DNA of 64,000 nucleotides from Auriscalpium vulgare (taxonomy: Eukaryota; Basidiomycota; Agaricomycetes; Russulales; Auriscalpiaceae), in NCBI GenBank assembly GCA_019915015.1, contig JAHBBC010000023.1:310001-374000 (forward strand), given 5' to 3'. This document shows, piece by piece, positions 10,835 through 46,779 of the stretch. Both the position numbers and the translations under genes were made by a program. Below the pieces are notes generated by a model. The model was not told where the DNA came from, did no database searches, and worked only from the letters and a program-made list of their open reading frames with translations. Positions within the stretch are counted from its first letter, which is position 1; every line of letters starts with the position of its first letter.

Positions 10835-10848
10835 CTTGGGGGGGAATG

Positions 10849-10865
10849 GCCAGTGCAAGCATGGC
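10849..10865 (-). other. 3'-terminal hairpin of the giant element
   Basis: The 17-mer GCCAGTGCAAGCATGGC can form a stem of GCCA/TGGC plus TGC/GCA with one bulged base. It lies between the 3' inverted repeat and the chromovirus junction. Rolling-circle elements usually have such a stem-loop beside the 3' terminus. Confidence 0.5.
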
Positions 10866-10868
10866 AGT

Positions 10869-10888
10869 ACGATTACTCTTAATCGTTT
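10869..10888. repeat. 3'-side subterminal inverted repeat
   Basis: ACGATTACTCTTAATCGTTT on the plus strand, an exact inverse of 46758-46777. The repeat is itself a palindrome: ACGATTA / TAATCGT around a 4-nt centre, CTCT here and AGAG at the other end. Confidence 0.8.
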
Positions 10889-10957
10889 AGGAGGAGGGGG
10901 GGGAGGGGTAATTTACAACATGTGAAGTGCAATTGAAAGTTCCCTGGAAACCATCTT

Positions 10958-12343
10958 AGAGGGGCCTCTCAATTTGAAGATGTGGGCTGACCTGTCGCTC
11001 TGCATATATCTGTCCTCACCATGGCTTGCGGGTTTGGATGCAAGTTCAGTGGTATTACTCAGGAAAACATATCCAGGACCATCGGCAGATGTAAGAACCG
11101 ACTCAGCGTAGCCCTGGCCCTCGCCATGCCCCTTGAGTGCCGCCCCAGTTTCCCCCTCCTCCCAACTGTCCCCGCTTTCGACTCAGCGCCGCCCCGGCCC
11201 CCGCCATGCCCCTTGAGAGCCGCCCCAGTTTCCCCCTCCTCCCGACTGTCCCCGCCTTCGACTCAGCGCGGCCCCGGGCCCCGCCATGCCCCTTGAGGGC
11301 CGCCCCAGTTTCCCCCTCCTCCCGACTGTCCCCGCCTCCGACTCAGCGCCGCCCCGGCCCCCGCCATGCCCCTTGAGGGCCGCCCCAGTTTCCCCCTCCT
11401 CCCGACTGTCCGCCATGCCCCTTGAGGGCCGCCCCAGTTTCCCCCTCCTCCCGACTGTCCCCGCCTCTGACTCAGCGCCGCCCCGGCCCCCGCCATGCCC
11501 CTTGAGGGCCGCCCCAGTTTCCCCCTCCTCCCGACTGTCCGCCATGCCCCTTGAGGGCCGCCCCAGTTTCCCCCTCCTCCCGACTGTCCCCGCCTCTGAC
11601 TCAGCGCCGCCCCGGCCCCCGCCATGCCCCTTGAGGGCCGCCCCAGTTTCCCATTGTGCCGACTGTCCCTGCCTCTGCCCGGCATTGGCCCTCGGAGTGG
11701 AGTCACCCTCGCTGGAAGATCCCTGGGTAGCAACCCTCTTGTCCATCAGAGGGGCCTCTCAATTTGAAGATGTGGGCTGACTCGTCGCTCTGCATATATC
11801 TGTCCTCACCATGGCTTGCGGGTTTGGGTGCAAGTTCAGTGGTATTACTCAGGAAAACATATCCAGGACCATCGGCAGATGTAAGAACCGACTCAGCGTA
11901 GCCCTGGCCCCCGCCATGCCCCTTGAGGGCCGCCCCAGTTTCCCCCTCCTCCTGACTGTCCGCCATGCCCCTTGAGGGCCGCCCCAGTTTCCCCCTCCTC
12001 CTGACTGTCCCCGCCTCCGACTCAGCGCCGCCCCGGCCCCCGCCATGCCCCTTGAGGGCCGCCCCAGTTTCCCCCTCCTCCTGACTGTCCGCCATGCCCC
12101 TTGAGGGCCGCCCCAGTTTCCCCCTCCTCCTGACTGTCCCCGCCTCCGACTCAGCGCCGCCCCGGCCCCCGCCATGCCCCTTGAGGGCCGCCCCAGTTTC
12201 CCATTGTGCCGACTGTCCCTGCCTCTGCCCGGCATTGGCCCTCGGAGTGGAGTCACCCTCGCTGGAAGATCCCTGGGTAGCAACCCTCTTGTCCATCAGA
12301 GGGGCCTCTCAATTTGAAGATGTGGGCTGACCCGTCGCTCTGC
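10958..12343. repeat. Nested tandem repeat block near the 3' end of the giant element
   Basis: A unit beginning AGAGGGGCCTCTCAATTTG starts at 10958, 11748 and 12298 (spacings 790 and 550; the third is truncated at about 12343). Within each unit runs a GC-rich array of CATGCCCCTTGAGGGCCGCC-type modules, with or without an additional CGACTCAGCGCCGCCCCGG segment. The array length explains the unit size difference. Each unit closes with the same sequence ending CTCTTGTCCATC. AGAGG/CCTCT can pair. The block lies between the RepHel stop and the 3' inverted repeat. Confidence 0.85.
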
Positions 12344-12350
12344 ACTACAT

Positions 12351-15300
12351 TTAGGCTAGTGCAGGGACAGTTGAATTCCTATATACTGTACTATATATCA
12401 ACACAGATGCCTTGTATCCTCTTGTTTGATATATGTCAGATATTGTGTTGAACTTCTCCTCAGTGATACAAACCCTGCCTGTGGTTATTCCATCATGAAA
12501 CCATGTTTCAGCTGAGTCTCCTATCAAACGTGCAGTAAAATGAGCATGTGCAAAATAGATAATACCTTTCAGCTTGTACATTACCTTATTATTGCCATCA
12601 CCAACATGCATTGTCTGTTTTATTTTCAACTTTGTAGTACCAGCATAGGGCAAAGCAATGCCGAGTAGAGGAGGAGGATGGGCACTCAAGTCTGTAATCT
12701 TTACCAAAGGTCTTTGGCATGATTGACAGAGGCGGGTAGTTGTCATACTGAATAACTTGTTTAGTTCTGATGACACAGGTTGACTGACATCCTTCTCCAA
12801 GGTCCAGAAAGGAGTATTGTATTGTCTATCAGATGCTATGGTATTGCAAGATGTACATTTATGTATAATATGAAAAAGGTATTTGTCACTTGAGAGCATC
12901 AACCGGCAGAGACTATAAATATCAGTCCCATGGATATTATCCATTGGATATCCATTGGGATCCCTTTGGTGGAGTTGGGCTTGGAGAGAATTACGAGATT
13001 GTTCTAGAGTAGTTAGAGGCTGTCCAGTCATGACCTGATTCCATCCCTCAGATATCAAAGTAATATAAGGATTTATTGAAGCAACATCTCTATTCCATAT
13101 TTGATCGTGACTGATAAATATTTGAAAGAGAATTGTAAGCAGGCTATCATAGACACAGCTCCAAGTGTCTCCATTCCATATATACCCCTTGCGCTCTCTC
13201 CCAGAGACAGCCATTAAATTTACATTGCCTACAACTTTACGTCTTTTCACAATGCGAGCAGGCCCGTTATTGGTGTTAAGTTGAGTTATTGGCTGAGTCC
13301 CTATTGCAGGGACAAAACCATTTGCAAGGTCAGTGTCATCAAATTTTCGTTTTGTCCCCTGTGCAGCTGGTTTTGGGTTTGTTGACCTTTTATTTCCCTT
13401 GGATGTGACTCGCTGCCATGAGGCATCTTCACCCACTTCTGGTATTACCAGTGGGTTGTACTTGGACCACTTGATAGAAGAATGCACATTGCCTGGCACA
13501 TGGTCAGCTCCAACCCAGGCTCTATACTGCTTGATCAATGTGCTACGTGTTGAAGCGTTGATATCACTAGGAAGTTCACCTATATAGCGCAACCGAGTAA
13601 TTTCATCTAATAGCTCTAACTCTCTCAACTCCTGGCGAACATGGCCAGGGAGACCACCCGTTATAATGGCAGCGGAAAAGTCACGCATTAGAATAGTGCC
13701 ATCCAAGCTTGCACTTCTTGATAGACATGTATACATAGAATAGTGAGTACGACACCTGAACGGGTCCACCACATTAAATGGACGTGTTCTTCCTTGGGAT
13801 GCATAGTCTGTCATTGCAAAATTAGGCACAATAGGAACCTGGTCTCGAGAGATGAAAATGTTGCCGTCATTGGGAGTATTGCATTTGATAGGTAAAGATT
13901 GTTTGGACAGCGGCACAACATTTTCTGGCAGACCCTCAAGTTGAACATTGGTTGGCGGCTTTGTCAACTTTACAAATACAACATCCAGAGTTTCTCTGTC
14001 ATTATCTAGTGCATGTGATTGCCAACCTACAACAGTGCCTTCTGCACCATTGGTAACGCACACTTCAGTTGCTTCATTGCGCTTTATCATAACAGGTAAG
14101 CCATGGCAAAGCTTGAGAACACCAGGAATGTTCATTGTAACACCATGAGGCAGACTATGCAGCTTTGCTTGCATCTCAGGAGGTACATTGTTTGACTTTC
14201 GCTTTGGATCAAGTTGTTTGCCTTTAGATTTTGTAGTGGTAGGCTCCCTTGATTTCCATTTATCGACACTATAAAAAGGGTTCAACACTTGATTTGTTTC
14301 TAGAGCAAAACGATCTGACATTGTAGTATTAATTTGATCACGCTGAGAGTTGAAAGCAGTGATCACAGACACGAAGCGAAAATTGGGATGATTTGGATCA
14401 ACATCTGGATTTTGAGGCCCTTTAATTCTAGATCGCAGAAGCGCGATGTCATGTGGAGTACATGATTTGTAACGCATATTTTCCAATGCTACACGGAACT
14501 GTGCATCTCTTTCTGTCTGTGAGCGTTGTCGCATATTCTGTCTCAAGAGGACAACAACAGTTGTTTGATGCCATAAAGCCTTGCCAATTGTCCTTTGTTG
14601 TTCTCTAAAGCCATTGGTGGTACCCAGAATGGTTGATACATTGTGGCTATATAGTGCAGGCCCTTTTGTCTGAATAGGGGGTAATTGTGCAAAGTCACCA
14701 GCAAAAATCATATTCTTGCCACCAAATGCTTGATCATCACTTTGTAAAGCAAGGCTCATTTGAGAGCTTATATGATAGAAGTCACCACAGTCGATCATAG
14801 ATACCTCGTCTAAGAAAACATATTTGACACATTTCAACCGCTCTCGAATCTTTGACATAGTAGTTGCTGTTTCACTTACGCCACTGCCAGGTCCCTCTCC
14901 TCCTCCCTGGAAGCCAAGAATTGAATGATAAGTTGACCCTGACACCAAGGCAGCTGCTGTACCAGTAGGAGCCATTATCAGAAATACGTAACTACGCTTT
15001 TGCTTGTCAAAGAGAGCCATGAGAGCCTTTATAACTTGAGATTTACCTGTGCCCGCCATCCCTCCAATATGCATCTTGAGTTGTTCAGCAAATGCATCAA
15101 CAGAGTGATTTGCTATAATGCGATAAGCTCGTTCTTGCTCTTCATTAAGTGTGTATTCTTGAGCTACCTCATCAATGAGTCGGGCATCTTCTTCACTGAC
15201 GGCTTTAAAGGTCTTGTATAAGAACTCACGATCTACCACTTTAACTTCATTAACATTATATGGCTTTGGTATGCCATTCAGGGATGGTTCGTTGTCCTTT

Positions 15301-18300
15301 CCAATTTGCTGGTACTGTGCCTGCTTGTTGTTGAGAACTTCTTTTTTTTTATCCGACAGGACATCCTTCCATTGCTTTCCTGTCATGATATCACCATTTG
15401 TAACGTCGGTATCAATACTCCATACATTGTCCCTGTCAGCTGCAGCCCAACCCCCACTCTGCAAAACTTGTTCAATTTCGGCCATCTGTATTGCTTTGTT
15501 TGCTGTTTTCCCACTCACCTCATCAAATTGAGCACTCAACCATTCAAGCTCCTTGCCATTGAGTGCTTCCTCTGTGTTGCGATCCTCACTATATTGTGCA
15601 TCCAAATCGTCCTGGAACTGACCAAAGATAGGATTGAACCCCATTTTTTGGTTCGCTTTCTCTGCGGCCTTGCGCTGAGCATGAAAGTCATCTCGTGCAT
15701 CATTGCATTCATATCGTATGTGAAAGAATTTCATCAACTCCAGCTGTCGAGGGGTAAAAGTGTATGTCTCAAAGGCCTCCTGCCAAGTTTGACCATCAAG
15801 TTTTAGATCAGAGCCCACACGCCAAGGTTTGAATAAGGTAAGCATAGTCAAACAATAGTCCTCATAATTTCCTTTGTCTTTTCTAGGCAGAGTTCCTCCA
15901 ACAAAATTGGGGACAATTGGCTCATCCTCAGATGCCAGTCGTATGGTATGTGTTTCGCATTGAGGATGTCCCGCTAAAAAATGGGGGTACTCTTTTGGCT
16001 TCTTGTCTTTTTGACCCTTTCGTTTAGTGCCTTTCTTTGCCTTGGGCTGTACATAGTCAGATGAACTATCGTCTGCCTCTGTGCTATTCATGCTCATTTC
16101 ATAGTCTTCATCATCAGAATTATTCACAATTGTGCTCATATCATCATCCTCAATATCCATCTCGTCGTCACTATCAACGATTGTCTTTTCTGTGTCACTT
16201 TCAATCTCTATCACCATATGCTCATCATCACCGCCACCACCAACCTGTATTTTTTGATCTAGGTCCCGGTCTATATCCATCATGTCATATTGATTGTCAA
16301 GATCAGCATTCTCAGCTACTTCTTGTTCATTTGCCTTTCCGTTTTTGGGAATCTTGAACTTGGTAGCAAAGCGACACCAATCATAGAGAGACATAGCTTC
16401 ATAGTCCACAGGGCGCTTGGTAAAGTCATCTACAGTAGTCAATGCAACAATTTTTCCTTTTACTTTGTTGATTACAACACGATCTCCATTCTCCTCTTCA
16501 GGCTCCAGGGAGTTCCAATATCTTTTCACTTCATTAATAAATGGCCGCCAATAAAATGTCTTAAATTTATGACTAGTGTAATGGTCAGGATGACCTAACA
16601 CATAGAGAGATGCCATTGGGCCACCTATTTCCATCTTGGTAGTCATAGAGTTTACCACTTGAACCATGACCTTGCGTGCCTTTTCCATTTGCGTCGCAGT
16701 TCCGCTAAGAAACTCAGAGTTGCGATTAAAGACTGACTTGATAGCCTCTAACATGACATGAGTCTTTAAAGGTGTCTTGGTTATATAGTCAGTCACATAT
16801 GCTATAATAGATTTAATAGCAGTTCCAGATAGAAGACTGGCAACATCCGAGTTGCACCTAATGAGGTAAGTCAATGTAGGGTTGAATGTGTTTAGCCAGG
16901 CCTCACCATGTTTCAATTCGATTGCACCTGTACCCATGTCCACTGAGGTCTCAGCATGTACTTCACGAGGAAAACGTGATTTGCATGAGGAATACTTTTT
17001 GTTAGTGCAACCTGCATGACATCTATGACGATTAGAGCGAAATATCAGTTCATCTGCTGTCTCCCACATGCGTGCCCACCATGATTTACTTTCAGAGCAA
17101 GATGTACATTCATCATCTTGAAGTGTCACATGGTTAGAGCACATCTTGGGTGGATGCTCTGGCAAGGTACAAGTGGGATCTAAACCACTATCACCTCTTT
17201 CCAAGTTGTCTTGAATTTGACTGTGGACATCGTTCAGAGTTCCATTAATGAATTGGCCTTGATGTGAGCCTTCTAGATATTCTACCAATTGTCTTTGAAA
17301 TTCAGAATCACCTGCTACAATTCGATCCCTTACCTCCTGCGGTGTTAATGCGTTTTGAATCCATAGAAGCATATGTAAGTGCAAAGTCAATCTCCCCTGT
17401 TGTTCCACAGTACCATAGTAGGCAGCTGTTTTACCAAACAACCCATCATGGTCTGCACCTACCCCAAGTACAACCTTGATAAATGTCTCCACCATGAATT
17501 TGAAGAAGCGCGCACCAGACACAGGATTGTTTGCAATCAAGCGATATCGTTCACTAGCGGTATATACCTTGGGATAAATGTGTATGTCCTGGTCAGCAAA
17601 ATATAGTGCAATCGGATGTTTAGAATCTGTTGGTGCAAACGTAATAAACCAGGTTGGAGCCCCAATATAGCTCATGAGAGCCCAAAGCTCATTACGCTTA
17701 TATTTATTGTTTGTTCGTGAGCCTTGCACATGCTGAGCGACATGGTCCAAGTCGTTGATAATTGCAAAGCACTCTTTTTCTGCCTCTCCATTAGCAGTTT
17801 CAAATTCACCATCTACCATCCTCTGGATCATATCATTCAGCACAACTTCATTCACATTGAGTAATCGCCTAGCAATATCTGGAAAGGACGCTTTCTGAGT
17901 GAGCAAATACCCCCCAGTATTGCTTCGTTTTATTTGTTCGTGATTAAATGCTATAAGTGGGAACAGAGGTTCCAATTGAAAGCGCTTGTCGTGATACATC
18001 AACAATGCACATTTTCGGGCACTATCACTGATTTTTGAGTACCCATTCTCATTTCCAATACCACCAAGCCCATAAGGGAAAAGCCAAGGAAAGGCTTGGG
18101 GATATAGCTGAGGATTGTTATATGTGCTCTCTGGTGTATCATTGTGACCTAGGCCAAGTGCGTATCCATTTTTTGAGTTTATATACTGAAGTGCAAGGGC
18201 TTTTAACTGTGTACCAGACTTCTTCTCAAGCTCAGCACCTGTTAAGGTATGCATAATGAAAGGGCATTCCCCCTCCGCTGTACCTTCTTCATCTTCAGAA

Positions 18301-19757: not shown

Positions 19758-19908
19758 GAGCTACAGAGGATGTCCCATGGTGGTGGTTCAGTTCAAGGGG
19801 AGGCGCCTAGAAACTTTCACCTTGGTGTTTGCTGTTGTTTGCAATTGTTTGCCACAATTATGTCATCATATGTCATCCCTTCCCCTTTGCTTTCGCTCAT
19901 GTTGCAGT

Positions 19909-26126: not shown

Positions 26127-27388
26127 ATGTCCACCAGCGACTTGACAACCTTTCTAGCCGATCCGGACTGCTGTGCGCTCATTGTCATTCATCTGCGCAT
26201 GAGCTTACACATCCACACAGTGAAGCACGTCCATGCAATGCTAACGGACTTCCACCGCCTACGTGATGCCAACGAGCAGTTGACAGCAGTGCGTCATGCG
26301 ACCTTTGGACCTATTTTTGATCATACTCATACTGTTTCATAGGGGAGCAGCGCACCTGAGCTCACATTTACTAGAAATGGCAGCGACATTTCGTACATCT
26401 TGCAGAAAGACGCAACAGGAGAGATGTTTGAGGCTGTGTTTGAAGTGCAGGGTGTTCTCATGGACTTTGACTTGCCGCCGGTTACCGATAAGAATCAGTC
26501 AGCTCATCATTCACAGTCAATTGGTTAAAGCGAAACTCACAAAGCACCTTTAGACTCATGCCGAAGCCAGCCTGGGCAAAGCAGGCTGTCAAGATCTGTG
26601 GTCTCGGGTCGCAAGTCTTTGACTCAGCGATTCGCGGTCTGAGAACTCTTGAGTGTAGGATTGCGTCTCTCTACAAGGTTGGCGCTCTACAGGAGTGGTC
26701 TCCATCAGCCATTGGAGAGTGGCCAAGCCTTGATTTTTCGACTCGCTATGTGACACCTCACGCATTTGCGAAAGGTCAACATGCCGTCCCATTCTCCCAG
26801 GATGTTGACCCGCAAGGGCTCCTCTTGAAGACCACCTCATCAGTGGGCGTTCATCTTGAAGACAATCATGTGTTGTATTATGAGGCACAACAAGATGAGT
26901 ACGTTGTTGCGTTGTTGCGGTTTCTTCTTATCACTGGTGCTCACCTGCATGCAGAGATAACAAAGTCATTTATCACCTGATCGACCCAGCCGTCATGCGC
27001 ATTGGGCAGATTGTGCAGCTCCAGGTTGCTTTCACATCAGTGCCACTATGGGGGAAAAAGGGTCAGCATCAACTGGCGTGCAAACTGAGGTCAATTGTGA
27101 TACTCGATCGCAATGTTCAAGAGGTGTGTGTGGCTATCTATGCCTTTTGCCTTGCCTGACTTGTGTTGTCAGGCATTCCAGTTATCTCTACATGCACACG
27201 TGCATCGAACGTCGACGGAACGCATCCCTGCAGTGCCGAAACGCAGGGTCGGGTATGCAACGGGCATAGTCAAGCGTGCAAAGACTAGAGGTTCTCCATT
27301 AGATGGTAGTTCACCGATGGCAGTCGAGCATGATATGGCTGGGTTGTCGCTGGGGCATGATAAGGAGAACAGTCCCGTGTTCGCGTAG
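26127..27388 (+). CDS. Unknown multi-exon gene
   Basis: Starts MSTSDLTTFLADPDCCALIV at 26127. Supported introns are 26289-26342 (GTGCGT...CATAG), one between about 26470 and 26555, one near 26896-26955 (GTACGT...GCAG), and one ending TCAG before 27174. The final exon ends ...GHDKENSPVFA-stop at 27388. The middle contains SSVGVHLEDNHVLYYEA and, after an intron, PAVMRIGQIVQLQVAF. The C-terminus is basic (PKRRVGYATGIVKRAK), suggesting nucleic-acid binding or nuclear localisation (inference). Family not recognised. Convergent with the dioxygenase-like gene: stops are about 200 bp apart. Confidence 0.6.
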
Positions 27389-27584: not shown

Positions 27585-30500
27585 CTATAAGTCGAGGTAG
27601 TTCATCTTATACAATCGACTGATTTTACAAAGTGTATGCTCAGCGGTGATAACGTCCCACCCCATGTGAGATTGTTCCACCGGAGTAAGGGCAGAAGAGA
27701 CAACATTGTAGAACGTACGAAATGCCCACTGAACTTCCTGCAGTTGAGGCTTTTTGGCGCTGAACTTTTGAATGCTTGAATCTATGAGTTGCAGGCGTTG
27801 GAGGCCACGAAGTGCGCCTCTGCGAAGCATCCAGATGACTCGGCCTGCCTCTTCAACTGTGGGCATAGCGACAACCCCAGTGTAGACATAATCAGCAGCA
27901 ATGAGATAACCCATGAGGTCACCGCAATAAGGATACACGTGGGCGCCATCTTCTCTCTTGATTATTTTCCGGTAGAAGTCGATCAAGGGAATGGGAGCAG
28001 CCTGTGTGGGGGTGTTGATAAAGTTGAAGGGAACATGAGATGCGGTGGCGTTCCACAGGGGGAGGGCATTGTCAACTGCACGGTGCGTAGGGGGACCATA
28101 GATCATCACGTCGGTGAAGTAGTTGTGCAGTGAGTCTTCATCAAGTTGCGATGACATGGTTGCATGGTCGTCCGTGAGTTCGGTCGGGTGGTTGAAGATG
28201 AGTGGATGTTCAAACATATACCGTCCGCCAAACAGTATAGTCCGGAAGACAAGTGAGCTGAAAAACCCTCTCCTGGTGCGCACATGATCTAGGGCGTATG
28301 GGCCATCAGATGTTCGTGATCGCCTGACACCAGGTGCCTTCTCGCGGAAGGGCAGGAATTTGTCTAGGTTGGAGGAAACTTTCCGAAGCAGCCGAGTGTC
28401 ACGTCTCGAGAGCCCAGATGGAACGGACGCGAGCGATGCGCTGCGATGAGTAGGAGCATCAATGAGATAGTCCATCATCCTCAGAACGTTGACAACGCGC
28501 TCGATGAGGGGGAAGATGTCGATTGTGTCGGGAATATGATCAAGATGGAAGACATGCGTTGACGAGGACGATGTGCCCTGCGTCATGGCGAAAATAGACG
28601 AGTGTGAAAGATCATTGACAGAGGCATGAGAGCTTGAGCTGCTAGTTGACGGGCCTAGGCCTGTGTGCGTGGACGATCCTTGTACAAATTCCGCGCCATC
28701 ATCATGCGGTACAAATTCTGCGTCGTCTTCATGCAACACAAATTCTGCATCCTCGTGTTGCCAATTGCTTGAGCCCGCAGACGCAGCACCAACGCAATAG
28801 AACTCTGAGGAATTACTTGTTGATCCGCAACTGGCAAGGAATGCCTCTTGTTCTGTGGAGAGCGAGCGAACATCTCCTCCAGCCGCGCCCCGTGTCACGT
28901 CAGCGATGAAGCGCATGGCCATAGCTTCACGCGACGATGTCACAAAGAGTTGTTGGCCGACAAGGCCGGAAAGAAGGGGCACCAGGTCGACAGCTGTGAA
29001 TGGACGTGCATTACGTGCACGGCTCGGGCCAAATCTTGACAGACTGTTGGCGTAGAGTTCAAAAGCACCAGAGACATACAATATGTCTTCAGTGAAGAGG
29101 CGAACCATGGCAGTAACGAGCCACGCCTGCAGTCGAGACGTTGGGGCCTGGGGGAAGCCAAGCCATTTGGAAAGAAGGTCGACCATATAATGGTAGACGC
29201 GCCGCTGATGGATGAACGGGCTGTCAGAGTCAGGATGGGGATCTGTTTGACGCCTCGGCACGGAGAGGATGTAAGGTGTCGCGGGGAAGGATGGGTGATA
29301 GCTGCGCGGCGTAACCGTTGACGAGGCACGTGTTGTGATCACGGTCGAAATCCTGCTAGCGAGGACAGCCAGGCGGTCTGTAGACGGCGTGTTGATATCT
29401 TGTGCGTAACGAAGGCATAATGATTCCAGCCACGTGAAAAACGCAGCATGATGTTTCATGAGCAGCGCTTGCATGTGTCGCACATCAAGGTCACTACCAG
29501 CGTGCAGAGCTGATAAGTGCTGCCAGCCTTGCCATGCTGCCGCGATCTTGTCGAATGTATCAGGGTCATTCCAGCGCGCCGATGCCATTTCACGATGTGC
29601 GATTGTCATTTGCGACGATGCTTGGTGCACAGTGATGCCAACAGACGCTAATCTGCTCGATCGAAATGCTACAGCAACGGACATTGCTTCTTGGATAAGA
29701 CTCGGCAATGACAACATGGGCTCATCTGCGCAAAATGTCAGCAAAGAAGCGGGTAGTGATGAGAAACAGCTGCACATACCAGCGACGACACTTGGTTCGA
29801 CTTCGAGAACCTCGGTGCTGGTGATGTTGAAAGGAATTCCCCAAGCCTGAATAAGCCCCGCGACGCCAGTTGGAAGGGCAGACTGTGCACGAACAGTGGT
29901 GGTAGACAGAAGAGCTGGCAAAGAGCGGAGACGGCGTGCATGTTGCTGTCCAAGATTTGGCGTCAAAGTCAGAGACGTAGGATCTGACGAAAATTCAGCG
30001 ACGTCGAAATAAACGTGGCAGGGAAACACACCTTGAGTGTTGTCAATACTGGCCCGACGAGCAAGCCGCTTGCTCCTGCGCGGAATCTCACCGCTGAACT
30101 CGTCTTCATCTTGATCTTGATCTTCATCGTCACGCTCATCACGCTTTCGCTTTGACTGCCTTGCAGAGAACGTTTCACGTGTCTTTGTGGTAGTCTTTGC
30201 AAGAGCGGTCGTCATTTTGTTACGATCCCTGCGGGCAATTATCCCACCGGCGATTGATGTGGATGGACCTTAAAACACTTAACAAGAAGTGTGCGTGACA
30301 TAGAAACAGGACGTACCCGGCTGGGCACTGCCCCCGGCGCCATCGTCATCATTGTCCTCATCGTCATCGCGGTGCCATGGAGTTTTACCATTTTCTGAGG
30401 GAAATGTAAGCAAATACAGAGAGCAGGTGATTGTATTACTTACTAGATGCGTAAGCATACGCCGCAGGCTGGCCACTAACACGATCATATGTTGCATTTG

Positions 30501-32582
30501 GCTCGGACATGATGGCGAGTGTCTTGATCTTCGCGGATTTGTCATAACAATAAGGGATGAACACACGACACTGGTCATTGTAGGCCTTCCATACCGCCGC
30601 GGCCCTGCGGCGAGCAATAGCATATTCATGATCGGGATCTACAAAATGAGCCTTCGAACAAGACGATCCAAAAGTGAAAGCTTACCGTTAAGAATTGGTG
30701 CTACCTGCCAAGGGTGCACGTCACGAAGCCCGTCACCTTGCTCAAAGCTGAACGCGGACAGGAATTTGTCCGGGTCGATATGTGCCTGGTGGAACATCCA
30801 ATCAGCAAGTGCAACGCCAATAGGACCAGGCATCATCACCTTGACGTGTGGAGGCAGCTGGGCGAGAGCGTACACACTCAATTGGTACGTAGAACGTGCC
30901 ATGAAATTGACAAGCGCCTCGTCATCCATGATCACAGAACCGTCGGCCGCGAACGTCGCATGAGGCGACCATCCTTGCTTGCTGCGGTCTTCCGGGCTGT
31001 CAAGCGAACGCACGTTAATGTAAGCGGCGATGGGAAAAAAAGCACAACGTACTTGTTCTTGACAGCTGGATCCAGGGTGAGCATCCCATGAGCCTTCTGA
31101 GCTGCATTGTCGCCAGAACGAAGAGTCGCCAGTGCAGTTATGCCGTCGTTTTCGAGAACGACACTTGGGGGATAGCATACGACAACAAGCCGATATGCCG
31201 AGCTGTCGACTTCCTGGCCGCGCGGTGCACGAGGTGGCGTCCCACCGTGGCGGCGAAGTCCATTGAAGTACAGGATGTTAAGACCCTCTAGCCGAACGAA
31301 CACGCCAAGCTCAATGAGGTGGAAGGTACCCGGATCGTAGCCAGGGGGGAGATCCGGCCACGATACCATGCCCGACAGTCCAGACACGTCGTCTCCTTTG
31401 TCGATATGCAGGAGCCCAAATTCTCCCAGCGAGGCCCATAGGTTTGTCGCCTCTGAGATTGGTGTCAGTAGATAGAGCATCCATTGTTGTAAGGGACGAA
31501 CCAATCCAGCTGGCCAGTGCAGGCGAGATGTTCAGCTGAGTATTGCCAAAATATTTGTTGCTGTATACCCCGATAGCCGGAGCATTAACGAGTTCGGCCT
31601 GCATCTGCATGGCCTCACGATGGGCCCTTCCAAGGAAGGAGACGCCAGCACTCGCCGCAGCGACTGAGGTCTATGCAGAGCAAACGTTACTAGATGATGT
31701 GTCAAAGTGTGGTGTTACGCACCCTCTGTATCTCTTGTCGCATGGCAAGGCCCTCAGACATGGGAAGATCTGGCGAGCCCTTGTTGCCCGCGGACGGCGC
31801 CATCAGCTGCGTAGGTCGTTCGTAGCCGATGCCCAGGTTGTAGGCACGAGCACCCCGGACGGGATGGGCGTTGCCCGACCGCTCAAACGCAGTCCCACCC
31901 TCGAAGCGACCAGTGTCCGGGTTAAGGACAGGCCTGGATAGTGTGCGTTCAGCGTGAGGACCAAGAATTTGCTGCCTTGCTGCATTGAGTTCATCACACA
32001 AGATGTCGCCATCGGGCAAGGCCCGCAGGAGGTTTCTGCCATCCATTTAGCACTAGTAGATCAGACGCAGTGTATGCACGTACTCGCCAACCAGCATCGT
32101 TTGCTGGACGTCCTCGCAACCACAAGCGCACCCTGTCAATGCTCGAGCAAAGAACGCATCGCCTTCCTTCATCTTCACCAGTCCTAAGGAATGACCAGAA
32201 TTAGAGGATGCATCTGTATGGATCGCAGGCAATACGCACCGACACCTCCATCGTCCAACAAACTGTTCATCGCCTTCGGGATCTCCAGACGGCTTGTATA
32301 CTCTCTGAACTCCTTCATCGCCTTCTCTGATGTGTCTTGGATATACACAAAGCAGCGGCCAAGGCTCTGTGTATTACGTAGGCCTGTCCTAGGGTCCTCA
32401 CGGAAGGGATGTTGACCACAAACGAGATGCAACGCAGGGAGACGAGGGTCGCGGTTGTCGATAGGTAATTCATCCATGAGCAAAGGGGCATGTGGTGGGG
32501 CAGGATCAGGGCTCGAAGAGCCGTGAGCAGAGCCCATGGGACCAGACTGAGAGTGACCTGCAGATTGCATGGGGGAGGACAT
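27585..32582 (-). CDS. Large multi-exon gene with 2-oxoglutarate/Fe(II) dioxygenase-like domain
   Basis: Starts MSSPMQSAGHSQSGPMG at 32582 and ends KMNYLDL-stop at 27585. Introns include 32184-32239 and 29726-29779; the latter is 54 nt with no stop, so it can hide as coding. The central exon (about 31010-31460) shows a double-stranded beta-helix signature: HID (31400-31408) in FGLLHIDKGDD, then LEGLNILYFNGLRRHGG with the distal His at 31247, and Arg in SSAYRLVVVCYPP (31190) suited to 2-oxoglutarate. Fungal TET/JBP-like dioxygenases with this HxD...H...R pattern are known to travel with transposons. Downstream is a basic, acidic-patterned segment (SKRLARR near 30070) and a long unrecognised C-terminal region of about 700 residues. 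The dioxygenase call is inference from motifs. Confidence 0.6.
29726..29779 (-). other. Stop-free 54-nt intron
   Basis: GTATGTGCAG...TTGCGCAG on the minus strand, a multiple of three without a stop, so it is invisible to ORF scanning. Splicing joins ...EPSVVA to DEPMLSLPSL. Its composition and consensus ends argue for an intron and not coding sequence. Confidence 0.6.
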
Positions 32583-38327: not shown

Positions 38328-38615
38328 GGCGAAGCATGACGTAGTTTTCCGGCTAATCAAACCAGAAAGTACGTCATGCTTCGCCTCTCCGGCTGGAAAT
38401 GTGCCCGACGCCGGCGGCTGGACCACATGAATACGTAAGCATGAGCTCTAGCTAGCATTGTACAGAGCACGTACGCTGGGCATGAGAACCTTCTCGTGCA
38501 TTGAGACATGGCCAATCCTAGGGCAACGGAGTGCTCCGGCATTTGGAACGGAGGAGGTGGTGGTGCGTGTGCAGGAACATGACATGGGCACTGATCGCTA
38601 ACACGCAGACCGCAA
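38328..38615. repeat. Hairpin repeat, copy 3, longest stem
   Basis: Here the arms extend to 17 bp: AGGCGAAGCATGACGTA ends at 38344 and its inverse TACGTCATGCTTCGCCT begins at 38371. The 3' part matches copy 2 to CGCTAACACGCAGAC near 38596. Confidence 0.85.
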
Positions 38616-38660
38616 GCATCGTTGGCAGTTTTTCAGATTAAATTGAGCACATGTAAGTAA

Positions 38661-39263
38661 TGACAAGCGAAGCAGCGGGCAGCACGCCGTACTGCCTAGC
38701 AGGTCAGACTCACAGGGGTTGCAGTGGTGCCCCACGGAGATCCCGAAGGATTGGGAACACGGTCGCAACCCCAATCCCAAGCATGTCGAGGAGTATATAA
38801 CCAATCCTAAGTAAGTAATGACACGCGAAGCAGCGGGCAGCACGCCGTACTGCCTGGCAGGTCACACTCACAGGGGTTGCAGTGGTGCCCCACGGAGATC
38901 CCGAAGGATTGGGAACACGGTCGCAACCCCCAATCGCAAGCATGTCGAGGAGTATATAACCAATCCTAAGTAAGTAGTGACACGCGAAGCAGCGGGCAGC
39001 ACGCCGTACTGCCTGGCAGGTCACACTCACAGGGGTTGCAGTGGTGCCCCACGGAGATCCCGAAGGATTGGGAACACGGTCGCAACCCCCAATCGCAAGC
39101 ATGTCGAGGAGTATATAACCAATCCCAAGTAAGTAATGACACGCGAAGCAGCGGGCAGCACGCCGTACTGCCTGGCAGGTCACACTCACAGGGGTTGCAG
39201 TGGTGCCCCACGGAGATCCCGAAGGATTGGGAACACGGTCGCAACCCCCAATCGCAAGCATGT
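38661..39263. repeat. 159-bp tandem repeat, four copies
   Basis: Units start at 38661, 38819, 38978 and 39137 (periods 158, 159, 159). Each contains GAAGCAGCGGGCAGCACGCC, CACAGGGGTTGCAGTGGTGC and GAGTATATAACCAATCC. The copies are nearly identical. The last loses homology after GCATGTC near 39263. Confidence 0.95.
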
Positions 39264-39410
39264 CAAGTACTGGGATAACATTGTCAAAGCCACAACAAAT
39301 ATTGCGTGGGCAGCATGCCGTCCGCAACATCCGAAGGGTCGACCACAGACCAGAGTCAAGGGGACAAGGCCGGTGTGCTGACGTGGAGGCACCGCCTCCA
39401 GGCAAACTTA

Positions 39411-39960
39411 ATGTAAGCGCAAGTGCAAATAAATGAAAACATATCTACTCACCAGTGTACAGGGAGCGGGTGCTGGGGTGGGCTGACGTTGTCGGCGGCG
39501 ACGGCGCGGCGTGCGCGCGCGTGTTGGTGACGTGGCGAGAGCGCGCGCGTCGCCGCGCGTGGGTGTTGGCGAGAGTGCGATCTCACTGACGACAGAATGT
39601 AAGCGCAAGTGCAAATAAATGAAAACATATCTGCTCACCAGTGTACAGGGAGCGGGTGCTGGGGTGGGCTGACGTTGTCGGCGGCGACGGCGCGGCGAGC
39701 GCGCGCGTGTTGGTGACGTGGCGAGAGCGCGCGCGTCGCCGCGCGTGGGTGTTGGCGAGAGTGCGCGCGTTTGGGAAGTGGCGAGCGCGTACATTGGTGG
39801 CGAGGCGTACGCGCGTGTGGTGGTTACGCGACACGCGCTGTCTTGAAGTGCTGGGTGGCGACGGCACGCGCGCATTGGTGACGTGGCGAGAGCGCGCGCC
39901 AACGCGCGCGTGGGTGTTGGTGAGAGTGCGTGGATTTGGGAAGTGGTGAGGGCGCACGTT
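39411..39960. repeat. 186-bp direct repeat with GCGC-rich arrays
   Basis: ATGTAAGCGCAAGTGCAAAT begins at 39411 and again at 39597. Both are followed by the same GTGTTGGTGACGTGGCGAGA and alternating purine-pyrimidine GCGCGCG tracts. Degenerate copies of the GTGTTGG...GACGTGGCGAGAGCGCGC module continue to about 39960. Confidence 0.85.
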
Positions 39961-40900
39961 GCTGACGAGGCGACCACACGAGCAGTCCTTACGTGGGACG
40001 CATAGTCTTGAAGCCGACGTCCTGGGTGGCGACGGCGTCCGCGGCATTGAGAACACGGCGTGCGCGGCATTGAGAGCTCGGTGTCGCAATGTTGAACAGG
40101 TGGCATGGCGGCTGTGGCAGCGGGGCAGCAAAATGACGGCGGCGCGAGCCCGTGCAGTGTCGGAGGCGACAGGGCCGGTGGTAAGGCCTTGAGACTGGGC
40201 GTTGCATCGAGAGGGCGGCGGCGAGGCTTTGCTGGCGCGAGCGCGGATAGTTGGGGCATCAAGGGTGGATCTCGCCAGGACACAGATGAAGCCTCTATGA
40301 GCATGTTCAGTACACAACCAGCAGAGAGCGCAAATTGCGCACCAGGAACCCACAATGTAGTCACCCTGCCGGTTGACGGGTTGAGCGGAGGTGGAAGAGG
40401 CTGTAGAGCAAGTCAGTACCGGTACGACACAGAATAGCTGCCACTCATGAAGGAAGCGCGACCGCATGGTTCGCGCTGCGTGGCCTTGCGTTTCTTGCAT
40501 GTCTGTGGGGTGTAAGTAACAAAGTTTGAGTGCAGATGCATGACTGGAGAGTTCAGCAGCTGTGCTCGAACCTTGTCGGAACCCTCCGAGTCAACCCTCG
40601 GGATCCGTGGCCATGAGCGCTTGTTGAATGCGCGACGCATTCCCCCTTCCACTTCCTCCTCTGTCTTTTGTTCTTCGACTTCCTGACTGTTTTGCGGTGC
40701 TCACAGCACACCAACGCGGGGTTCGTTGCATGGCACGTCGTGCTTTACATTTTGCTGGAGGGTCTGTAAGCTAATGCGAACGCGGGACTCCTTAGCAGTG
40801 ACTAGCAACTGCGCTCGCCCGCTGCAAGGCCTCCTCCATTCATTCCAGCGCGCTGCGCACAACCCCGCACACACCGAGGACCAAGCACGACCCCGTCTCA
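39961..40900. other. GC-rich spacer, no supported gene
   Basis: Degenerate simple-sequence and GCGC-type repeats fade out at about 40200. Beyond that I see open frames but no convincing product. Confidence 0.4.
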
Positions 40901-40960
40901 AGTGCCCACCGTCAATTTCTTTGCGCCCACTGGTCCGCGCGCTGCGCAAGACCCAACGAA

Positions 40961-41900
40961 GCGTGCCCACCGTCTGGTCACTCTGGTCCGTCGTCCTACG
41001 CGTCTCATCGCCCACGCTCGCTTACCCAACGTCCCTCTCACCTCGCATGACCCCGTCTCTATCACTTATCCCCAATTCCCGCTCGCCCACCGTTCAGCGC
41101 ATCACGCACGTCCCAAAGACGCTCGCCCACCGTCCATCCGCGCTCGTACGTCGTCCTACACGCCTCATTGCCCACGCTCGCTTACCCACCGTCCCCCTCC
41201 TCTCGCACGACTCCGCTTCGATCATCCATCCCAACTTCTCGCTCGTCCACCGCGCCGCGCGCCGCGCACGACCCAACGATGCTCGCCCACCGTCCATCCG
41301 CGCTCGTACGTCGTCCTACACGCCTCATTGCCCACGTTCGCTTACCCAACGCCCCCGTCCTCTTGCACGACTCCGTCTCAATGATCCATCGCAATTCTTC
41401 GCTCGTCCACCGCGCCGCGCGCCGCGCACGACCCAACGATGCTCGCCCACCATCCATTTGCCCTCGTACGTCGTCCTACACATCTCATCGCCCACGCTCG
41501 CTTACCCAACGCCCCCGTCCTCTTGCACGACTCCGTCTCGATGGTCCATCGCAATTTCTCGCTCGTCCCCCGCGCGCCGCGCCGCGCACGACCAACCCAA
41601 CGACGCTTGCCCACCGTCTGTTTGCGGTCGCAAGCCGGTCTGCGCGTTGTGTATCGCCCGCGCTCACTCGCCCGCCGTTTCCTGTGCGCCGCATCGAGCG
41701 CATTTGCTCATACAACATCCCTGTCTCCCCGCACGCCCCCGTGTCGTTCGCGCCCCATCTGATCGCTCTTGTACGTCGTTCTACGCGCCCCATCGCGCAC
41801 AATCGCTTACCCAATGTCCCCCTCCCCTTGCACGAACCCGTCTCGATCACCGACCGTCAATTTGGGTGTGCCTACCGTCCCGCGCGGCGTGCACGCTCCC
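40961..41900. repeat. 160-bp tandem repeat array
   Basis: The phrase (GC)TCGCCCACCGTCCATCCGC recurs at 41121, 41281 and 41441, with diverged forms at about 40961 and 41605, a constant 160-bp period. Units share CGTCGTCCTACACGCCTCAT and CGCTCGCTTACCCA. Decay increases to the right, to about 42500. The period is not a multiple of three, so open frames through it are not evidence of a protein. Confidence 0.9.
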
Positions 41901-42549
41901 GCTTCATTCCCACGCCGTCCAAATGCTGTCCCCTGCCATCCCGCACGCTGGGCGCGCGCGTTTGTGTACCGCCCGTTCATGCTTGCATGCACCCTCCATG
42001 TCGAGCAACGCCCGCGCTCGCTACCACGTCCTCTCCTGCCCGCAACATCGCCCGCGCTCGCTCACCCAACGTCCCGTGCGCTACCCACGCCTCCGTGTCA
42101 GCCGCCCACCGTCCAAACCCCTTTGCCTGCCATGCCACGCGGTGCACGCAACCACGCCTCACTCGCGCACCACCTATTGTTGCTTGCCTGCCGTCCTACT
42201 CGCCGCACCGCACGCGCTCGCTCACACACAAACCCACGCGCCACCCACGACCCCGCCTGACTCGCACACCGTCCATTCTGAGGTGCCCATTGTCCTGCGG
42301 ACAGGCCATTGTAGCTCGCCCAAGGTCCTGCGAGTCAAGCACGCCTCTCTTTTGCTGGCCTACTATCCCGCGCGCTGCGCACAACCCGCCTAACTCATCC
42401 CCCATCCATTTTCGCTCGCCCGCCGTCCTGCCCGCCGCACCGTCCACGCTCGCTCACACAACATCGAGCGTCGCTCACCCACCGCCTCGCTGGCTCGCTC
42501 AGCGGCTACCGTGCAGCCCACCCACCGCCCTTGCTCTCTTGAAGTGCCA

Positions 42550-43396
42550 GGTAGGTCCCAAATATTGATTTTTGACGCTGTCGACTAAAGCAACGTGCGT
42601 GCAGTCTACCTTGCAGAGTCAGCAGGTTGCTCACCACCCACTGCCCTGCTCGCCCAGTGCGCTCCACGCCGCGCACACACAACGCTGCGCGTCGCCCACT
42701 GATCCATCTCTCGCGCCCATAAAACCGCACACCCACCACTCACCGACGGCCTGCTCGCCCGGTGCCTTGCGCACATATCACTTCGCTCCCGCAGAGCTCT
42801 GCGTGCCGCACACCGACCGCTTCGCTCGCACAGCGCACCGACTCGCTAAGCGTTCCACAGAGCACACCACCGTCTCAAACCGCCACCGTCAGGGCCACAG
42901 CGTGCGTGCCCATCACACTCGGTCATCCACCGTCACGAAACGCTGCCTTTTGCGTTGCGGCGTCGTGCACACCATCTCGTAGCATCCCTGCGCCTCGCGG
43001 TCAGGCACCTAATTGTTACGTGAGCTGCGTCGCGAGCTCTGCCCCCTACCGCACCACCATCAGCCCGAAATTGTTGTTTGTCGTGACTTTAGTGCATCAG
43101 AGCGGCGTGCTGCCCATCTTGTGTGCCATTGCTCATTGACCGTGCTCCGTATAGTCTACTTGATACTGCTGGGGCTTAGTGGCCACACTCTGTGATTGAT
43201 TGCATAGAGCATAGTGATACGGCGTGCTGCCCATCACTTTTGCACTTCGTATATTAATTACTGCTTTGGATTCTGGACTGGTGTTTGCTGCCTCTGCTAC
43301 CTGCTGTGTACCCTACACAGTCCACCCAATGTATGTACAGATGAAGAGGTGTGATGATAACAAGTGACTAACTCGATCCTGTGTTCCCGTAGTGTC
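42550..43396. other. Region upstream of the 43397 gene, no supported gene
   Basis: Decaying C-rich repeats run to about 42960, then ordinary sequence. CCCGTAG just before the ATG at 43397 resembles a 3' splice site, so a 5' untranslated exon is possible. Confidence 0.4.
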
Positions 43397-45444
43397 ATGG
43401 CCCCACCACCTTTCATCGACATGTTCTCATGGCTGTCTAACAGCCACATCATGATCTCTTGCAATGCGCAATGTATCCCTGCCCCTCTACCGTCATCTTT
43501 CAGCTTCGAGGTTCCGCCGCAAATTCAAGAGGATGGCTTATGGGGCGAGTGCGAGTGGACCACATTCCCGCAACCCTTCAATCCATCTGCTCCATATCTT
43601 GCATACATTCCTATTGCCTCCAGCACCTTTGCTATTCATCTTTGCTCTGTGCGCAAGGAAATGTGGGCGCCACACCCTGACAGCAGCGGAATGCATGTTC
43701 TGGCAAAAGAAATAGCTAAGACCCTGCACTCGGCGATGGAGTGGGCCACTTTGGTCACACAAAAAGACTTTCCTGCCTTCCATCAACACGCAAAGTCATC
43801 ACCTCTGCTACAAAATGTTGTTCTTCCCGAAGAAGCTTTGCGCAGGCTGCGCGTGTGTTTCTACACATTACAACAGGATGGGGTTCGAGCGTGGCGCGAT
43901 TTTGTCGACTACTTTAGAAATGCCCAGCGCGCATTACTAGAATTTATCGCATTCACTGCATGGTGGCAAGATCTCAAGGGCTTTCGACAACATACAAACT
44001 ACCAAGCCCCTTCTCGAGCGCCAACCCGTGGCTCATTGTTTCCCAATCGAGATCTCTACGAATACTTTGCGCGCATGAAAGTGGCGTCATATGCTATCAT
44101 TCCAGCCAACCTCTTGCCCAATATCAATTCAGTCCCCTGTGTGCCCTTCACGGCGCGCTCAAACCTGTGCATGACGAATAATCCGCGGCCCATGGGTGCC
44201 AAGCAGGAGCACAGCATAGAGCTTTGGTGCTATCCCCCAGCCGTTCTCGATAGCTCATGGTTTGAGAGCGCTGCGCGTGGGATGTCCAGCCGTGATGATG
44301 AGTTCAATCCCACTCACGAATACGCTGCAGCCCTGCAGAAAAAGCAGAACAAAAAAAATGCCCCTCGAAGTACGTCCTGCATGCTTTGAGCCTTAATAGA
44401 TAACTAACTGGCCTATCAGAATTCAATTTCTTGTTCCATGAACTTCAAGACTATCGACGCGCTTACAGCACTCCCCCACCTCCTCCAAACATCTTCCCAC
44501 CACACCTTCCCTTCTATGAACAAGCCCTGAATCATGTCAACCCAATGAAGGCGAAAGTTACAACTGAGTCTCGGCGTTTTGCATTTCCTCCACTATATCA
44601 TTTCTGGAGCGGCACTCCTGAACGACAAACAGCATTCTATAAACGGATCGACTCTCTCTCCAGCTTCTTGGTTATCCGGGACAGTCATGACCTGGACTTC
44701 CATCAATACACTGCTGCGGAGTGGAAGGAAATTCTCGGTGATGTGTACTGGAAAAAGCAGTGGCCTACCAAGGATCCCTACAAGTTCAACCCTGCTGTGG
44801 ATGAGGCGTATGACCCTGCTGTCTTCTGGAAGTATGGTGGGAAGCAGTTCTTTGGGAAGTACGAGAAGGACGCGATTGAAGGCAAGCTGAAGCTCGGCCC
44901 TTCAAAACACAGCTGTGGATGCTTGCCAGACAACAGTGTATGGGATGACCCAGCCTTCCGACGGTTGATGTTGTACAATATCAAACGCCACCAACTGCGG
45001 GATGACCTCTATTACATGCTGCGGGCAACCACTGAACTGAGAGGCTATAAGGAGGAAAGGGAGGGGCTCTTTATTGCTTTTTGGAAGAAGGTTCCTTCTT
45101 TTCCGGGTCCTTGTGACTTTTGGGAGGCACGCCGGGATTGGCTTCAGAGCCTGCAAGACATGCTGCCTGAGTTTATAGGCTATGAGCAGTATACTTCGCG
45201 ATTTCCTATTGACCTTCGATCTGCAAAAATTCCTTCTTTGGATCATCAAGGCTTTCTGAATGTAGAGTTACAGCTTTTGACTTGTTATGTAGAGTTATTC
45301 TTGATTCATTTTGGTTGGCATCCCAGTGCGCTTCTTGTTGAGCCTCACTCTACACAGTATTGGCTTATGCCTTGCTCGCGGCATGGCATCACATCTCATT
45401 CTGATTCTCCAATGTCTTCACTTACGTCTCTTACCTCAGACTAG
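43397..45444 (+). CDS. Unknown 665-residue protein, two exons
   Basis: Starts MAPPPFIDMFSWLSNSH at 43397. Exon 1 runs to 44369, intron 44370-44419 (GTACGT, branch-like CTAACTG, TATCAG), exon 2 runs 44420-45444. The two exons join in frame (KKNAPR-KFNFLFHELQ) and total 1998 nt. The sequence is rich in Trp, Tyr and Pro, with no transmembrane segment or catalytic motif I recognise. Composition differs sharply from the GC-repeat DNA to its left, and the frame is undamaged, which argues for recent selection or recent arrival. Convergent with the 45600-46358 gene. Confidence 0.75.
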
Positions 45445-45599
45445 TAGTTATGTGTTTGCTCCCATTTTTTGATGCGTCTATCAATCAAACTTTGTGCCGG
45501 GTTCAAAGGTTCTGCCACACTATGTCTCACTGCCATCAGTCAATACAGGTCTTCCATCATCTTCCACGCCCCAATTCTGCCCGCACAGGCATCCATTAT

Positions 45600-46358
45600 C
45601 TACATATCAGTAATGTAAGTATTGAACTCTGCGTCGTGATTCTCTCCAATGAGTTTGTTTGTAGTCGGAAAAACATGTTGAACCAGTTTTCCCTGTTTGG
45701 TGGGATGGTACCATTCCAAGGTGAGCTACGCATACAATATGAGCTTTAGCCATGCACATAGGAAACAAATCACTCACCCTTCGAATGCCACATACAAAAC
45801 GGTCAGGGTGTTCCGACTTCTCATGCACAGCAACAACGGCTGCAAATGCCTTCAAAAAGCTCGCCTCCTTCCAATACCACCTGCCCGCCTTCAAAAAAGC
45901 CACATCATCTGCCTCCATGCCCTCCACATCCTTCTCCCCGAGCTTGAGCAAATCAATCGCGTGCGAGCAGAAACCAACCACACATCGGTAGACTGCGCTG
46001 TCGGGCAAATGGGGATGGGTGAGGAAAAACTCCCACATTGGACCGGAGACGGCATTGTTGCGCGTCATATAGATGCGATCCGGGTGCATGTAACGTAATG
46101 CCCTCAAATGCTCCGCCTTAAAGTCGGCCTCGGCCTGCGAGTCTGGCAGGTTCAGTACTCTGTCCTGATAAACACCATTCATAACCTGAATATGAATGAA
46201 ATCATTCAGTACAATACAGGTGCAAACTTTGGGCACCTGTTACTCACATGACGCCTCCTGATGGCAGGGACTTCCTTCACGACTGGCAGGGAGACTATGC
46301 CCCCCGAGTCTTCCCCAGATGACAACTTAGACAAATCTCCAGGAGGGGATGGTGGCAT
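45600..46358 (-). CDS. Unknown 214-residue protein, three exons
   Basis: Exon 1 46248-46358 (MPPSPPGDLSKLSSG), intron 46186-46247 (GTGAGT...TTCAG), exon 2 45778-46185, intron 45726-45777 (GTGAGT...GCGTAG), exon 3 45600-45725 ending EFNTYITDM-stop. Lengths are 111, 408 and 126 nt, all in phase. Exon 2 looks like a compact folded domain (YMHPDRIYMTRNNAVSGPMW, GRWYWKEASFLKAFAAV). Family not recognised; loosely reminiscent of small basidiomycete domains linked to transposons. It is the gene nearest the 5' end of the giant element, about 400 bp away. Confidence 0.72.
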
Positions 46359-46757
46359 AGTGGATAAGGTGGTGGTTTAGGATTGAGGGGGTGATGCATG
46401 TGCAGCTACGATAGCCGGGTGATTTCGTATCTCCGCGCCCGAAAGACATGCAGGGTGCATTGGGGGACAATGAGGAACACTACTACAGTCTATACATGCA
46501 ATTCTGCCGAAATACAACATAAGAACCTTCTTACCCAGGTTGACAAAGTTAAGAATCAAGTTTGAAGACACAGAGCAAAACTACATGCGGTGCGAGTGTC
46601 ATTTGAAGCACGATGAGCCTGCAACACTTAAGGGAGGGCCTGCTTAGCTAAGAATTACTGAAAAAGGCAGTTGGGACGACGCGACTTGACCGTGGGATCT
46701 ATTTTCCTAAAGCGACTTATAACGCGTACAGATTTTGGCCTGACTCGTTGGAGAAAG
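46359..46757. other. 5'-terminal noncoding region of the giant element
   Basis: No gene. Between the 45600-46358 gene and the 5' inverted repeat. The protease frame runs 35 codons into it from the right and stops at 46655. Confidence 0.5.
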
Positions 46758-46777
46758 AAACGATTAAGAGTAATCGT
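46758..46777. repeat. 5'-side subterminal inverted repeat
   Basis: AAACGATTAAGAGTAATCGT on the plus strand, the exact inverse of 10869-10888. It lies 2 nt from the inferred 5' terminus. The internal palindrome has centre AGAG. Confidence 0.8.
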
Positions 46778-46779
46778 AA

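Follow-up and report, generated by a model that had tools for sequence, protein, structure and literature searches.

A probable 36-kb Helitron2-type transposon with companion genes inside a chromovirus of Auriscalpium vulgare

A stretch of 64,000 nucleotides from the basidiomycete Auriscalpium vulgare (assembly GCA_019915015.1, contig JAHBBC010000023.1, positions 310,001 to 374,000; hereafter the window, C23:310001-374000 in the genome searched) contains a 35,945-bp segment that interrupts a chromovirus. An initial annotation, made from the sequence alone, had described this segment as a Helentron-like element with intact cargo. We consider it very probable that the segment, here called element A, is a single Helitron2-type transposon with long-term companion genes, and these genes are likely to be working parts of the element, not random stowaways. 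The genome searched comprises 51.6 Mb in 96 contigs. The searches scored the best candidates (19 of 120 for the RepHel gene of the element, 40 of 143 for its left end and 40 of 163 for its right end), so the numbers of loci and ends given below are lower bounds.

Four copies of the chromovirus (on contigs C28, C1, C2 and C10) are contiguous across the insertion point by their coordinates and lack the segment. The empty site was read on C28, C2 and C10: the flanks are 98.6-99.3% identical to those in the window, the junction is GTGAA followed directly by ATTCC, and there is a 2-nt microhomology and no target duplication, as initially described. For C1 the evidence is limited to matches of 138 and 143 bp (99% and 97%, respectively). 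Translation of the uninterrupted chromovirus across the junction gives DWLEFHNPA, in agreement with the claim that removal of the segment restores WLE-F-HNP. The terminal repeats of the host chromovirus are 416 bp long and differ at two positions, which indicates that both its insertion and that of element A are young; the description of the target as a young chromovirus therefore holds. No intact chromovirus copy was found to contain sequence of the insert, nor did the inner genes turn out to be separate insertions.

The ends of element A have the structure that had been ascribed to them. On the coding strand the 5' end is the right end (TTACGATTACTC...) and the 3' end is the left end (...CCCCCCCAAG). 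The two copies of the 20-bp inverted repeat are at the proposed distances of 2 nt and 34 nt from the termini; they are the sole matches in the window with up to three mismatches, and none was found in 100 shuffles. The repeat itself forms a hairpin at both ends. The 17-nt hairpin proposed for the longer gap is present, though weak by energy: folded as DNA it reaches -2.3 kcal/mol, and 118 of 200 shuffles were equal or better. Folding z scores were -2.95 for the left end (repeat and 17-nt hairpin together) and -5.21 for the right end. The hairpin region has a single match in the window, and the scans of the window for the repeat and the hairpin region detected no additional terminal motif inside element A.

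The same ends recur in the genome next to different flanking sequences; a genome search for the repeat paired with the hairpin had been proposed in the initial annotation. The scan started from 31 left-end and 31 right-end loci, including repeated places, one partial end and the empty-site loci. The count was restricted to ends matching a strict pattern, of which the 17-nt hairpin sequence was a part in the case of left ends. At least 27 distinct left ends were found, all 27 with an A before them, and at least 26 distinct right ends, all 26 with an A after them. An A beside every end in the plus orientation of the element means a T at the junction on the coding strand. Some left and right ends are paired at a distance of just 2.6 kb (C53:80370-82940 and C2:1614564-1617132), which fits non-autonomous derivatives.

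Insertion between T and T, as initially proposed, is supported in part. A T was present at all junctions read. On the other (5') side the base on the coding strand is T at one resolved site; at the site of a further element, D, it is A, so that insertion between T and T is a preference and no rule. The site of element D was resolved from a second, paralogous empty site, i.e. an uninterrupted counterpart within the left flank of element B, another member of the family. In the region G000:C10:1078533-1169105 the right ends of elements B and D face each other with about 0.4 kb between them, and their insertion points are in two copies of a single host sequence, at positions that differ by about 55 bp. 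The interval between the ends of element D contains a further RepHel locus with 88% identity.

The RepHel gene is open and has the orientation that the ends demand, as claimed before. In Pfam searches the protein matched Helitron_like_N (2.6e-33) and PIF1 (2.6e-21), and no endonuclease family was found in it at E <= 5, a threshold at which a domain diverged below detection is conceivable. A RepHel without detectable endonuclease places element A among Helitron2-type elements, and a strict Helentron, with its fused endonuclease, was set aside; of the initial label, the rolling-circle anatomy stands and the strict Helentron identity does not. Canonical Helitron1 was likewise discarded, as it has 5'-TC and 3'-CTRR termini and the coding-strand termini here are TTACG and CCAAG. 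Asymmetric inverted repeats, a terminal hairpin, Rep and PIF1 helicase domains and insertion at T without duplication were all found, and the anatomy fits Helitron2. RepHel gave 23 matches in the genome, which merge to at least 18 loci, seven of them near full length and stop-free.

A second copy of the element is located on C4. Beginning with the same left end, it keeps the order of element A up to the equivalent of position 46282, with nested insertions between. Its identity to element A is 95.6% in the first 0.5 kb inside the left end, 99% in the RepHel pieces, 99-100% over 20038-34424 (98% over the last stretch), 99% over 34425-38650, 98-99% in the 43k gene (86% in one intron-spanning alignment) and 99.6% over 45370-46282. 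Given this collinearity, the bulk of the 36 kb acts as a single unit, and the claim of an unusually large rolling-circle unit is upheld: the length is more than twice the 14 kb that a review, in the text available, gives for rolling-circle elements in fungi. A more diverged copy on C2 (J) has pieces of both halves in order, with identities of 69-98%. The comparison behind the C4 and C2 pieces included one genome listing that left out the query's own place.

Elements B (C10, 30.4 kb) and C (C23, 31.0 kb) were read from end to end, and they share the ends, RepHel and the proximal half with element A. In 500-bp steps, the identity up to 24.3 kb is 96-100% for element B and 95-100% for element C, with one step of 90.6% in the latter. 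Farther on it is 88-94% as far as 26.8 kb and 76-80% from there to 27.3 kb, and past this point the similarity is mainly at the protein level, the long exon of the oxygenase-like gene being 43-45% identical. RepHel proteins are 98-99% identical between the elements, yet the identity of the oxygenase-like protein goes down to about 45%. A 20-bp tandem repeat at 25015-25105 is located close to the point at which the drop sets in. The simplest reading is that the distal half is a mosaic that has been exchanged between lineages. The distal region of element B consists mostly of GC-rich repeats and showed no match to element A; in both elements B and C, GC-rich repeats are likewise located between the oxygenase-like gene and the 43k position. 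Other copies with the same ends, which the initial annotation had proposed to look for, were found, and they differ in the distal half.

These companion genes are the oxygenase-like gene and two genes termed 26k and 43k (Table 1). Each RepHel locus was paired with the closest upstream match of a gene, up to a distance of 60 kb. All 23 RepHel matches were paired with 19 of the 59 oxygenase-like matches (the C-terminal-domain match at each locus) and with 24 of the 50 matches of 43k (mostly one per place); for 26k, all 32 matches and the 18 merged RepHel loci were used. The 26k gene is found at 18 of the 18 RepHel loci and always on the strand opposite to RepHel, with a gap of 5.4-7.9 kb at 14 of them and 9.3-22.7 kb at the remaining four. 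The oxygenase-like gene, present at at least 19 loci in total, accompanies RepHel on the same strand at 17 of 18 loci, and the gap is 6.8-8.1 kb in 13 of the 17. The 43k gene is found at nine of 18, on the strand opposite to RepHel and beyond the oxygenase-like gene; it is present at all six loci of a RepHel group with 52-58% identity. As a set, these genes go with RepHel down to about 54% identity of its protein. Given the fixed relative strand and order, we read the companion genes as element parts, and their presence even where RepHel is so diverged argues against ordinary capture. The initial notion of cargo, i.e. of picked-up passengers, is not supported here.

The annotation had also counted at least four undamaged intron-containing genes. 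Two, the oxygenase-like gene and 43k, were modelled open; the 26k gene is supported at the exon level, and the fourth candidate is an open reading frame (ORF) of 210 amino acids (aa). The best 300-bp stretch of the 26k exon has 49 silent versus 22 altering substitutions. The 43k protein has 18 homologues with 28-42% identity, and those with a named source come from Lactarius, Auriscalpium and Dentipellis; protein matches of the inner genes as a whole come from Auriscalpium, Lactarius, Dentipellis and Pluteus. In element C the corresponding position and strand are occupied by a distant relative of 43k (hmmsearch E 1.6e-5). At locus C47:41842 the nearest 43k match is of a paralogue type with about 41% identity, and another match (C47:7336) is farther out. 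Pfam searches with the oxygenase-like protein P0001, the larger inner ORFs and the 43k family gave no significant family, nor did two of the six frames of 19801-34798 match any. PDB sequence searches reached E 0.085 and 0.33 at best. The AlphaFold model of the 43k family had a predicted local distance difference test (pLDDT) score of 64.1, and a Foldseek search with it gave nothing below E 2.3.

Several observations weigh against a single element with its own companion genes. The C4 copy is damaged: RepHel has stops, and the 43k gene has both a stop and about 0.56 kb of additional sequence. No right end was found for this copy, the fetched DNA past 46282 does not continue element A, and the comparison covered element A minus 38651-43396. 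No oxygenase-like gene was found at the RepHel locus on C11 (C11:74086-81498), where a RepHel of 68% identity is present together with 26k. The protein search for 43k was negative at the other nine of the 18 RepHel loci, element C with its distant relative by profile being one of these. Stand-alone paralogues exist for both 26k (twelve of the 32 matches, next to 18 with RepHel and two at oxygenase-like loci without RepHel) and 43k (twelve places), which means that these genes are not exclusive to the lineage of the element. Finally, rolling-circle movement by its own RepHel is predicted and was not observed. The stand-alone paralogues are 33-42% identical for 26k and 40-46% over the N-terminal part for 43k (e.g. 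C4:1942587, C3:656666 and C4:1172212); many occur in equal-score sets, and they are likely to be parts of other mobile elements.

These points have to be weighed in the light of two alternatives. A Helitron2 that has repeatedly captured host genes, i.e. one with ordinary cargo, would agree with the gene-fragment capture known for Helitrons (PMC6431247, from the text available), with the varying length and distal content of elements A, B and C and with the 26k and 43k copies elsewhere in the genome. We nevertheless regard it as unlikely, since the same genes recur in fixed strand and order beside RepHel even at 52-58% RepHel identity. In addition, a single-copy parent gene is absent from the match lists, and many of the copies elsewhere form groups of two to five with similar scores, a pattern like that of multi-copy elements. 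A nest of independent insertions between two related ends would fit the local frequency of nested insertions, as both the C4 and the C10 copies contain others. It is very improbable, however, because in the C4 copy the nested insertions are flanked on either side by segments of element A that keep the order found in element A, and no further terminal motif is found inside; a composite was rejected on these grounds. An assembly artefact was rejected as well, the empty sites, the second copy and the ends in common being consistent with one another. A single Helitron2-type transposon with companion genes is thus the reading that we adopt.

The oxygenase-like gene was modelled by protein-to-genome alignment on Auriscalpium vulgare P0001, which gave a stop-free protein of 1,390 aa that is identical to P0001 at 812 of the 1,359 residues aligned. 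Of the 12 introns in this alignment, three are probably artefacts, since the frame around them is open even with no intron removed; about nine are credible, some of them with approximate positions. Open models were also obtained from elements B and C (599 of 1,321 and 633 of 1,337 residues identical to P0001). The protein is probably, as predicted from its residue pattern, a dioxygenase of the 2-oxoglutarate/Fe(II) kind and possibly TET/JBP-like. In its N-terminal half an HxD motif is found in seven of seven sequences, and a further H and R in six of seven, the seventh (P0021) being without that stretch; H, D, H and R are thus invariant in the six sequences that cover them. By eye, D and H are 51 residues apart versus 48 in the TET/JBP protein L079. 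Among 24,736 Pfam families, six members of the family retrieved at E <= 10 just Tet_JBP (PF12851, 0.17) and PSP (0.35), each with one member. Tet_JBP is the top family for the domain, with an E-value that is not significant.

The dioxygenase assignment faces counter-evidence of its own. The distance from H to R (19 residues, counted by eye) exceeds that of L079 (11), and the hhalign comparison with six TET/JBP sequences of the same genome gave a probability of 0.5%, which is not significant. A PDB profile search returned one match, an unrelated-looking protein with E 0.33, and the AlphaFold model, built from four sequences, was useless (pLDDT 32.6) and did not resolve the fold, which in TET/JBP dioxygenases is a double-stranded beta-helix. 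Moreover, no profile match of the protein was significant, and its C-terminal part of about 750 aa is of no recognised kind. The protein could therefore have another role, e.g. structural or DNA-binding, with a coincidental motif, and we see this as a serious if less probable alternative. The invariance of the four residues and the similar D-to-H distance speak against it, hhalign does place H on H and R on R, and fungal transposons, a Helitron2 among them, are known to carry TET/JBP genes (PMC12730594, from the text available). The genome's own TET/JBP matches number 25, with 11 over the curated Pfam cut-off, and none is among the 19 oxygenase-like loci. Those over the cut-off include C10:111107 and C8:1578966, and several are in equal-score sets.

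Rolling-circle elements move by nicking one end, unwinding and replacing a strand, and stopping at the other end. Element A could follow this scheme: RepHel would make its nick at the 5' (right) end and would then unwind and replace the coding strand as far as the hairpin next to the 3' (left) terminus, where it would stop, and the copy would be joined next to a T. The companion genes would be kept by selection as long-term parts, not as fresh host captures. The predicted dioxygenase might protect the element from silencing by oxidising modified bases or some related mark, a role that we infer by analogy with the transposons described by Kojima 2025 (PMC12730594, in the text available), and the 26k and 43k proteins may take part in the same cycle. 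Recombination would swap the distal half between lineages, with the GC-rich tandem arrays adding to the length differences.

Table 1. Features of element A and its host chromovirus (window coordinates).
Feature	Position	Strand	Details
Long terminal repeat of host chromovirus	6909..7324		414/416 identical to 49496-49911
Element A	10835..46779	-	35,945 bp; missing from four chromovirus copies, ends recurring elsewhere, second copy on C4
Hairpin of 3' terminus	10849..10865	-	17 nt; weak by energy
Subterminal inverted repeat, 3' (left) copy	10869..10888		20 bp, ACGATTACTCTTAATCGTTT; 34 nt from left terminus
GC-rich tandem array	11099..12202		49/80/129-bp units; near 3' end; in C4 copy, not in elements B and C
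RepHel	12354-19760	-	2,469 aa, one open frame; DUF6570, Helitron_like_N, PIF1
26k, small conserved gene, exon	26492..26977	+	Excess of silent substitutions
Oxygenase-like gene	27759..32573	-	Protein of ~1,400 aa, about nine introns; modelled open
GC-rich tandem arrays	38653..41618		159-, 186-, 165- and 160-bp units; variable stretch from oxygenase-like gene to 43k
43k gene	43397..45444	+	665 aa; modelled open, one intron 44370-44419
210-aa ORF	45610..46239	-	DNA in C4 copy, partly in C2 copy; evidence: ORF
Subterminal inverted repeat, 5' (right) copy	46758..46777		Exact inverse of left copy; 2 nt from right terminus; itself a hairpin
Other long terminal repeat of host chromovirus	49496..49911		Pairs with 6909-7324

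Outside element A, the window contains a Mon2/Sec7-like host gene (2100-4720) that adjoins the chromovirus. At 51624-53074, within 50742-55026, a 1.45-kb sequence with inverted arms of 274 bp (96% complementary) interrupts an array of 135-bp repeats, and a minus-strand frame at 54289-55050 matches TPR families. Identical direct repeats of 300 bp at 55841-56140 and 59146-59445, 3.3 kb apart, flank an ORF of 739 aa without a Pfam match; together these are perhaps a short retroelement.

A family of 30-36 kb in which several open genes stay next to RepHel despite deep divergence points to a multi-gene programme in some rolling-circle transposons. A more far-reaching picture, which we put forward tentatively, is that of a giant rolling-circle lineage with a stable small genome, composed of RepHel and at least three co-inherited genes, with a DNA-modifying dioxygenase as a shield against silencing and a swapped distal module. 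If true, this would be a eukaryotic counterpart of plasmids and phages with a fixed core and an exchanged accessory half. The family offers a testable case for self-protection from silencing and for recombination between elements, and the captured genes of other fungal Helitrons may need to be re-read as element parts.

The kinds of components found here are already known, namely fungal Helitron2 anatomy (PMC5148889), gene-bearing Pleurotus Helitrons (PMC4289320) and TET/JBP genes in fungal transposons (PMC12730594); we compare them as far as the available text of each source goes. A fungal family of 30-36 kb with several open genes, an order fixed across deep divergence and an exchanged distal half was not found in the literature searched, in which subscription journals are thinly covered. 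FoHeli, the Helitron2 of Fusarium oxysporum (PMC5148889), resembles element A in its asymmetric terminal inverted repeat with a 3' copy about 20-40 bp from the end, its end hairpins, the absence of an endonuclease from fungal members and non-autonomous derivatives; some subgroups also insert before T. FoHeli1 is about 6-7 kb long, however, as opposed to 36 kb here, and the text available describes no conserved companion gene set. Helentrons and the related HINE and DINE-1 elements (PMC4067079) likewise have palindromic subterminal repeats, located in the mite HINE at 2-4 nt (5' side) and about 38-60 nt (3' side) from the respective end, together with a 3' palindrome and a TT preference (DINE-1), but the Helentron RepHel is fused to an endonuclease, none of which was found in element A.

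HELPO1 of Pleurotus ostreatus with its 'cap' genes (PMC4289320) is also from a basidiomycete, and capB homologues are found beside RepHel in other species. In contrast to element A, the largest among the members available for comparison is 13.7 kb, in a subfamily that includes a copy with an inserted Gypsy element, the genes are described as captured, and the text available describes no multi-gene order across deep RepHel divergence. The TET/JBP-bearing transposons of Kojima 2025 (PMC12730594) share with element A a dioxygenase gene, predicted in our case, in DNA transposons of Agaricomycetes, one lineage being Helitron2; they differ in that the report for Russulales, in the text available, concerns Kyakuja alone, and the domain here is not significant for PF12851. 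In size, element A is comparable to the large Helitrons of maize, which reach 39 kb (PMC6431247). The maize elements carry up to nine gene fragments, whereas element A has its own RepHel and open genes that are common to the lineages of its family.

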